Below are positions 55,209-57,620 of a DNA stretch of 64,000 bases, piece after piece. The DNA comes from Altibacter lentus. GTDB lineage: Bacteria; Bacteroidota; Bacteroidia; Flavobacteriales; Flavobacteriaceae. A program made the position numbers and the translations under genes. The notes under the pieces are model-generated. The model made no database searches. It was not told the origin of the DNA and was given only the letters and a program-made list of their open reading frames with translations. The stretch lies in the NCBI RefSeq assembly GCF_000746845.1, contig NZ_KN050846.1:2248963-2312962 (forward strand), in the 5' to 3' direction. How positions within the stretch are numbered: the first letter of the stretch is position 1; every line of letters begins with the position of its first letter.

Positions 55209-55562
55209 ATGGATCATAAGGAAATGAATGTTTGGAATAAGGGTATGGATCTGGTTGAAAGGATTTATATAATCAGTAATGAATTTCCATCTGAAGAAAC
55301 CTATGGCCTTAAAAATCAAATAAGAAGAGCGGCTGTGTCAGTTCCGTCTAATATAGCCGAAGGTGCTGCAAGGAAAGGGAATAAAGAGTTTTTACAGTTT
55401 ATAAATATTGCGCTAGGCTCTTGGTCGGAAGTAGAAACTCAATACTTGCTAGCGATGCGCTTGGGATATAGTAAAGAAGATAAAGAACTTGATGAACGAA
55501 TCGTTTCAGTACGCAAATTACTTTTAGGAACCCGAAACTATATAAGAAAAACGAACGCTTAA
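55209..55562 (+). CDS. Four-helix-bundle protein of the S23 / 23S rRNA intervening-sequence family, second copy
   Basis: The 117-residue protein has the same length as the copy at 42934 and the same marks: MNVWNKGMDLVERIY, RRAAVSVPSNIAEGAARKG, SEVETQYLLAMRL. The two are clearly paralogous but far diverged, so not a recent duplication. It lies between clpP and a DUF58 gene, with heptamer arrays on both sides. Its stop codon overlaps the first base of the right array. Function of stand-alone members is unknown. Confidence 0.9.
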   Translation: MDHKEMNVWNKGMDLVERIYIISNEFPSEETYGLKNQIRRAAVSVPSNIAEGAARKGNKEFLQFINIALGSWSEVETQYLLAMRLGYSKEDKELDERIVSVRKLLLGTRNYIRKTNA

Positions 55563-55644
55563 CTACTCACTACTCACTAATCACTATTCACTAATCACTA
55601 TTCACTAATCACTATTCACTAATCACTAATCACTACTCACCATT
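55561..55644. repeat. Right heptamer array of the second four-helix-bundle locus
   Basis: Twelve consecutive 7-nt units, starting AACTACT and CACTACT, then alternating CACTAAT and CACTATT, and ending CACTACT, CACCATT. They are inverted relative to the left array (CACCATT is the complement of AATGGTG). The array ends 2 nt before the DUF58 ATG. Confidence 0.9.
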
Positions 55645-56784: not shown

Positions 56785-56858
56785 GGTCTGGTAGTTCAGT
56801 TGGTTAGAATACCTGCCTGTCACGCAGGGGGTCGCGAGTTCGAGTCTCGTCCAGACCG
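56785..56858 (+). tRNA. tRNA-Asp (anticodon GTC)
   Basis: The 74-nt sequence folds as a tRNA: acceptor GGTCTGG / CCAGACC, D-loop with AGTTCAGTTGGTTAGA, anticodon loop CTGTCAC (GTC), T-arm GGTTCGAGTC-type sequence GAGTTCGAGTCTC, discriminator G. CCA is not encoded. It decodes Asp. It lies at the boundary to the AT-rich region downstream. Confidence 0.97.
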
Positions 56859-56877
56859 CAACTAAAATGTTGTGTTG

Positions 56878-56895
56878 TCCCGATAGCTATCGGGA
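56878..56895. repeat. Perfect 18-bp palindrome after tRNA-Asp
   Basis: TCCCGATAGCTATCGGGA is fully self-complementary. The following bases resemble the end of the 76-bp repeat unit, suggesting a diverged 'unit zero'. Confidence 0.7.
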
Positions 56896-56928
56896 TGTGG
56901 TTAAATCCTTTATAGGATTACCAATGAG

Positions 56929-56957
56929 AAGCTTGTCTGAGAAGACGGGCTTTTTTT
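56929..56957 (+). terminator. Intrinsic terminator of the tRNA-Asp transcript
   Basis: AAGCTTGTCT (56929-56938) pairs with AGACGGGCTT (56943-56952), two G-U pairs, loop GAGA, then a T run to 56957. Confidence 0.82.
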
Positions 56958-56965
56958 GTTAGTGA

Positions 56966-57490
56966 GACAGTGAATCTTCGATTCACGTAGTCGAACTAAT
57001 CCCGCTGCAAGCGGGATCTCAATCTTTTATAGCCTTACCATGACAGTGAATCTATGATTCACGTAGTCGAACTAATCCCGCTGCAAGCGGGATCTCAATC
57101 TTTTATAGCCTTACCATGACAGCGAATCTTCGATTCGCGTAGTCGAAGGAATCCCGCTGCAAGCGGGATCTCAATCTTTTATAGCCTTGCCGTGACAGTG
57201 AATCTATGATTCACGTAGTCGAAGGAATCCCGCTGCAAGCGGGATCTCAATCTTTTATAGCCTTACCATGACAGTGAATCTATGATTCACGTAGTCGAAG
57301 GAATCCCGCTGCAAGCGGGATCTCAATCTTTTATAGCCTTACCATGACAGTGAATCTATGATTCACGTAGTCGAAGGAATCCCGCTGCAAGCGGGATCTC
57401 AATCTTTTATAGCCTTGCCGTGACAGTGAATCTATGATTCACGTAGTCGAAGGAATCCCGCTGCAAGCGGGATCTCAATCTTTTATAGCC
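56966..57490. repeat. Seven tandem copies of a 76-bp structured repeat
   Basis: Units start at 56966, 57042, 57118, 57194, 57270, 57346 and 57422, an exact 76-bp period; the last lacks its final spacer. Each has a 7-bp hairpin GTGAATC-nnn-GATTCAC, then GTAGTCGAA, then a 7-bp hairpin ATCCCGC-TGCAA-GCGGGAT, then TCAATCTTTTATAGCC and a TTACCAT or TTGCCGT spacer. Unit 3 has GCGAATC/GATTCGC, a paired change that keeps the stem. Units 1-2 read CGAACTA after GTAGT, units 3-7 CGAAGGA. No ORF. Function unknown. Confidence 0.95.
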
Positions 57491-57620
57491 TGATTTACTG
57501 AGGAAAAAAGTATCATTTGGGACATTACTCCCCGATCCGTCGTCTTAGTTTTGTTTACTTTTATTACTATAGCACTGTAAAACAGGATTTTATGTTATTT
57601 TGTTCAATCTATTAATTAGT

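Follow-up and report, generated by a model that had tools for sequence, protein, structure and literature searches.

The tandem array behind the tRNA-Asp gene of Altibacter lentus is a local amplification of a more widespread element, and the same fold recurs in many marine Bacteroidota with its letters changed and its pairing kept, so that the element looks like an apparently undescribed palindromic-repeat family rather than a lone curiosity. Our preferred reading, to which we give a probability of about one half, is that the unit of the array is a member of this Bacteroidota family acting as a DNA hairpin, spread non-autonomously in the manner of REPs or PATEs and then duplicated in tandem at this site. 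The features concerned lie in a stretch of 64,000 nucleotides of contig NZ_KN050846.1 (the window), in whose coordinates they are given here.

56785..56859, forward strand: tRNA-Asp (GTC) gene (ARAGORN; Rfam RF00005).
56870..56958, forward strand: conserved segment 3′ of tRNA-Asp, made up of TTGTGTTGT, hairpin, hairpin, CCAATGAGAAGC and terminator (21-genome alignment); the array begins at its end.
56929..56957, forward strand: intrinsic terminator (hairpin and T-run) abutted by the first element (script scan).
56959..57016, forward strand: complete element, spanning the start of unit 1 (56966-57041), recognized by its fold and by models R1 and R2; its parts are foot TTAGT/ACTAA, GA/GA, GAC/GTC, A x GTA bulge, stem GTGAATC/GATTCAC and hairpin TCCCGCT/AGCGGGA.
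57017..57041, forward strand: inter-unit spacer TCTCAATCTTTTATAGCCTTACCAT, similar to part of the tRNA-downstream segment, GGTTAAATCCTTTATAGGATTACCAATGA (read from the sequence).
57042..57117, forward strand: unit 2, without foot, the 3′-side ACTAA retained.
57118..57193, forward strand: unit 3, with a GCGAATC/GATTCGC stem, changed in both arms.
57194..57269, forward strand: unit 4.
57270..57345, forward strand: unit 5.
57346..57421, forward strand: unit 6.
57422..57491, forward strand: unit 7, 70 of 76 bases.

The repeat runs from 56966 to 57491 with a period of 76, 6.9 copies, 96% matches, no indels and a score of 954 (TRF), and a script places the unit starts at 56966, 57042, 57118, 57194, 57270, 57346 and 57422, exactly 76 apart all six times, as a sequence-only reading of this DNA had described; the seventh unit ends after 70 bases. 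Also borne out are the two 7-bp hairpins that it saw in each unit, the second of which (TCCCGCT/AGCGGGA in 7/7 units) even reaches 8 bp once the flanking A and T are counted, and the paired change that turns the GTGAATC/GATTCAC of stem 1, found in the six other units, into the GCGAATC/GATTCGC of unit 3. The array indeed holds no ORF of 60 aa or more. Its spacers recur along with the unit, unlike the unique spacers of a CRISPR array. Folded as RNA, unit 1 reaches −26.4 kcal/mol (z −4.6; none of 200 shuffles equally good), with the outermost foot pair left open by the folding program. TTAGTGA precedes unit 1, which thus belongs to a complete element, and TTACCAT or TTGCCGT precede units 2–7, where the foot is lost and both hairpins are kept. 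The complete element scores 90.7 bits with model R2 and E 2.0e-10 with model R1 in its own genome, both models having been built with this copy among their sequences. A general architecture emerges of a 5-bp foot, a tandem GA/GA, a 3-bp helix, a 1x3 bulge and a variable stem, with the second hairpin directly behind the foot. Elsewhere in the window, a 14-bp tandem repeat (ACTAATCACTATTC, 5.9 copies, TRF) occupies 55562-55644, just upstream of a gene that we take to be DUF58-like.

This presumed DUF58-like gene and the tRNA-Asp gene are syntenic in relatives. The array had been described as following the tRNA gene and its terminator; both do lie upstream, but the terminator closes the conserved segment 56870-56958 and does not follow the tRNA directly. 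That segment (loci L294-L322) comprises TTGTGTTGT, two variable hairpins, CC[AG]ATGA and a GAAGCTT terminator; in an alignment of 21 sequences from 21 genomes (A3, using 21 of 22 references) 26 columns are invariant and the terminator stem is kept, some of its pairs having changed in a compensating way. The segment, which has no match in Rfam, is possibly an undescribed small RNA. In two genomes of the same genus (G002 and G003) the tRNA-Asp site stops at the terminator and has no element, and in a third genome (G001) the contig stops just inside the segment. A genome of another genus, G104, carries an orthologous array of nine units behind tRNA-Asp, with a 78-bp unit, a GAGAATC/GATTCTC stem and a different spacer; it is nearly homogeneous, one unit having a one-sided mismatch. 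Tandem arrays thus occur in two genera, and in both the foot is found in the first unit only. The sequence-only reading had further remarked that the unit is as long as a tRNA and folds otherwise; the fold does differ, but the match in length is a coincidence because the orthologous unit measures 78 bp, and the different fold and the 78-bp period together rule out a tRNA-like or tRNA-derived array.

Searching the rest of the genome and the relatives, as that reading had proposed, brought up further copies in both. The A. lentus genome has two more approximately 16 and 17 kb downstream, outside the window: one (L012:5703-5812) joins the start of the tRNA-downstream segment to a unit, and the other, an isolated copy (L012:6715-6776), pairs GCGAATC with GATTCAC and so carries one half of the unit 3 change. 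A pattern loose in its middle part, AGTGARACN{18,48}GTYGAACTAA, had 42 matches in 16 of 149 family genomes, and its reversed control had none; one of the 42 (in G109) lacks a good hairpin and is probably due to chance. A stricter pattern matched at least 120 stretches across genome contigs; of those listed, 119 are Bacteroidota and one a MAG called Chlorobiota, and the groups among them include Arenibacter, Gelidibacter, Dokdonia, Aquimarina, Polaribacter, Salegentibacter, Kordia, Draconibacterium and Prolixibacteraceae. A covariance model built from 59 copies (alignment A1: 52 of 67 listed references plus seven of the short-hairpin subtype to which the window copy belongs) has matches in 33 of the 149 family genomes at E 1e-4. 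Copy number differs strongly between genomes, from one to at least 30, as counted from at most 30 scored candidates per genome under stricter filters that recovered one of the nine copies of the A. lentus genome. For the short subtype, a loose pattern with a free foot matched 56 of 397 genomes, of which eight were kept by eye (7-8 bp hairpin, right place). In three loci (L034, L095 and L151) a palindrome of the GTGCTGAACTTGTTTCAGTATC type is inserted in the loop of the second hairpin, forming a nested repeat. No Rfam family matches the element, in the window or in relatives, which rules out a known Rfam RNA as its identity, and a plasmid-borne repeat is ruled out by the lack of any match in 72,556 plasmid records. 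The openly readable text of the literature that we consulted, subscription papers and figures lying outside it, holds no description of the motif (PMC3733652, PMC6006769, PMC9723704, PMC12306157, PMC2864571).

The copies are scattered through intergenic DNA without any gene of their own, and they favour the position immediately following a T-run or terminator. Of 150 elements, a single one falls within an ORF of at least 80 aa; as to upstream neighbours, 84 elements have a gene on their own strand, 58 one on the opposite strand and eight none. Of these 150, 141 have a unique flank with 60 bases upstream, and in 29 of the 141, the window copy included, the TTAG begins directly where an intrinsic terminator stops; for other intergenic TTAG sites of these loci, serving as controls, the figure is 10 of 1706 (Fisher p 8e-26); TTTA stands directly before 56 of the 141 and before 37 of 1728 controls. 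It is the same end of the element that faces the T-run or terminator. Arenibacter copies have constant ends over a longer copy, running from TTTA and TTAG to CCTTTTA with further hairpins toward the 3′ end, and no inverted terminal repeats were seen in them by eye. Some insertion sites are common to different genera and hold quite different stems, which fits replacement or repeated insertion at one place; such sharing implies that part of the copies are old or that the site is used repeatedly. Short-subtype copies directly abut RNase P RNA at its 3′ end (G246), tmRNA at its 5′ end and on the strand opposite to it (G004, G014, G235 and G374), and the tRNA-Asp segment (A. lentus, G104 and a Pukyongia MAG, L169). 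The loci beside RNase P RNA or tmRNA are L287:790-859, L288, L289, L290 and L291. In G317, the stop codon of a gene with what we take to be an mnmE-like end marks the start of an element (L285:756-838), and a second, partial copy follows. An autonomous gene adjoining the copies was considered and rejected, as the recurrent neighbours look like shared sites.

Across the elements the fold is conserved with compensating changes. In 59 aligned elements 92.2% of cells pair, and slid controls are all far lower; two-sided changes number 120 cells against 30.6 in shuffles, with 0 of 500 shuffles as high. The window's short-hairpin subtype by itself has 36 such cells against 12.2 (again 0 of 500), one of five covariation measures, that of further pair types, being without excess there. 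Unpaired stem changes are not as common as paired ones: over the first seven stem positions of 72 nonredundant elements the Watson-Crick fraction is 0.867, compared with 0.594 (sd 0.015) when arms are shuffled between elements. In these 72, to which 140 distinct hairpins were reduced (below 85% ungapped identity), RAC and GTY co-vary in 70 (60 AAC-GTT, 10 GAC-GTC, two off). In the long subtype foot pairing is 99.8%, which is no test as the search pattern itself prescribed some of the foot; in the short subtype, where it was free, feet are TTAGT/ACTAA, TTAAT/ATTAA, ATAAT/ATTAT (two genomes), GTAAT/ATTAC and TGAGT/ACTCA, and among the copies kept the foot of G014 (GTAAT/ACCCT) is unpaired. The GA/GA of the foot is invariant across genera. 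The earlier suggestion that selection or copying preserves the pairing therefore holds insofar as pairing is preserved by some process, two-sided changes lying above shuffles; that process may be either selection or copying.

Such conservation might reflect a functional RNA, that is, an element transcribed and structured, for example protein-binding or stabilizing, beside the genes for tRNA, tmRNA and RNase P. The clear covariation, the invariant tandem GA/GA and bulge, and the short-hairpin copies adjoining precisely such RNA genes would all suit this possibility, which we nevertheless consider doubtful: orientation relative to genes is mixed, many copies begin after a terminator, where transcription should have ended, and the element matches no Rfam family. 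A functional RNA is expected to favour G.U clearly. Over all distinct stems, mismatches in stem 1 are indeed G.T in 20 cases and A.C in seven (p 0.02), with 12 and 22 in hairpin 2; in the 72 nonredundant elements they are nine and five in stem 1 and eight and 11 in hairpin 2, a balanced total of 17 to 16, so that no clear RNA signal is seen overall. Among known RNAs of this phylum, Flavo-1 (RF01705) shares with our element a Bacteroidetes host and the lack of a preferred orientation, its hits lying seemingly sense or antisense of transcripts alike according to the parts of the sources available to us (PMC9723704, PMC2864571), but RF01705 matches none of the elements tested and gives one weak hit (29.2 bits, cut-off 42) elsewhere in L291.

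It is unlikely, in our estimate, that an ordinary intergenic palindrome was simply duplicated in tandem by neutral processes, the unit 3 change having arisen by intrastrand template switching (quasi-palindrome correction) and reflecting neither function nor mobility. Several features of the array would be expected of such a duplication: the paired change is a single event, the internal units have no foot, the G104 array is nearly homogeneous at 78 bp, and the lone copy with half of the unit 3 change is also what intrastrand template correction would leave. Left unexplained by neutral duplication, however, are the dispersal in 33 of 149 genomes, the preference for terminators and the GA/GA foot that does not vary across genera.

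The preferred reading, dispersal of a hairpin element, invites comparison with REP, REPIN and BIME sequences and their RAYT (TnpA-REP) transposases. Like these, our elements are short, intergenic palindromes (149 of 150 outside ORFs) in many copies, up to at least 30 per genome, with lineage-specific paired stems and tandem clusters, and we take the inner AA/GCA loop to resemble E. coli REP. Unlike REPs, they have no GTAG/GTGG tetranucleotide 0-2 nt 5′ of the hairpin, the consensus 5′ end being TTAGTGARAC and the foot TTAGT/ACTAA with GA/GA (GTAG occurs on the 3′ side only, in the short subtype), and they do not regularly flank RAYT genes. Since two tested features of REPs are thus lacking, we say that the element works like a REP or PATE and not that it is one; the ‘atypical’ structures of RAYT subclass 2.6, within the literature as available to us, lie outside this comparison. 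PATEs, palindrome-associated transposable elements, are non-autonomous IS200/IS605 relatives with asymmetric ends, oriented insertion after a short target and subterminal hairpins. Our element likewise lacks an ORF and appears to share these traits; the TTTA before 56 of 141 copies and the CCTTTTA end in Arenibacter may correspond to the fixed 5′ target and constant ends, without target duplication, of such elements, but no IS200/IS605 element sharing its ends occurs among the Y1 loci checked, which are part of all Y1 copies.

A Y1 transposase is present in all 13 genomes with at least three copies and in 46 of 136 others (p 2e-6, relatedness ignored, with the three-copy cut set after the data were seen); genomes with one or two copies have it at the background rate (7/20). 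No single Y1 subclass is common to the 13, G087 lacking any NF047646 match and G070 and G071 matching PF01797 weakly only and NF047646 strongly. In 82 Y1/RAYT loci, some of them overlapping, the model matches one place only, which precedes a RAYT-HemF fusion gene by 214 bp and belongs to G062, the copy-richest genome; regular flanking of Y1 or RAYT genes was therefore not found, and flanked RAYT genes, sought also by structural scans, were rejected. A Y1 transposase is thus a putative mobilizer. The fusion is seen in several family genomes (L277:1906-3405, L347, L349, L350, L351 and L353), where a RAYT-like Y1 domain continues, within one reading frame, into a protein that we presume to be HemF-like.

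Two further origins were weighed and appear far less probable. Integron attC recombination sites carry the boxes RYYYAAC ... GTTRRRY, and our element, a hairpin with conserved foot, bulge and variable top that at times forms arrays, has in many copies a GTTGAAC that fits the second box; but its 5′ arm GTGARAC does not fit the first, the window has GTC in place of GTT, and its units are not separated by gene cassettes, so that we find this origin very improbable. Least credible of all is a remnant or satellite of a group IIC intron or other reverse-transcriptase element, a class that also inserts behind terminators: mobilization by reverse transcriptase was rejected, the gene being present in just 3 of the 13 copy-rich genomes (35 of 136 others) and absent from the A. 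lentus genome, and no Rfam intron family matches at the elements.

We therefore return to non-autonomous spread followed by tandem duplication. Copies would spread as single-stranded DNA hairpins, with an HUH (Y1) transposase acting in trans, and one such copy may have inserted past the terminator that closes the tRNA-Asp unit. The seven units would then have arisen by tandem duplication that took in part of the upstream segment as spacer; we infer that the spacer arose by unequal recombination at the shared CGGGAT. The arms might stay paired either because mobilization is restricted to good hairpins or because repair templated by the hairpin restores them. By now the array is probably immobile, as neither PF01797 nor NF047646 detects a Y1 transposase in the A. 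lentus genome. More tentatively, and with a probability that we would place well below even, the elements could be a class of structured mobile element in their own right, characterized by the tandem-GA foot and 1x3 bulge, with its own putative recognition protein, terminators as preferred landing sites, and stems freely rewritten while the fold is kept.

If the preferred reading is true, it would add a phylum-wide palindromic-repeat family with a sharply defined fold to a group in which such elements are little described, would connect HUH transposases with the amplification of repeats in a way that can be tested, and would show terminators to be landing sites. The tandem copies would also be natural arrays in which the origin of paired changes in palindromes, by selection or by hairpin-templated correction, may be measured.
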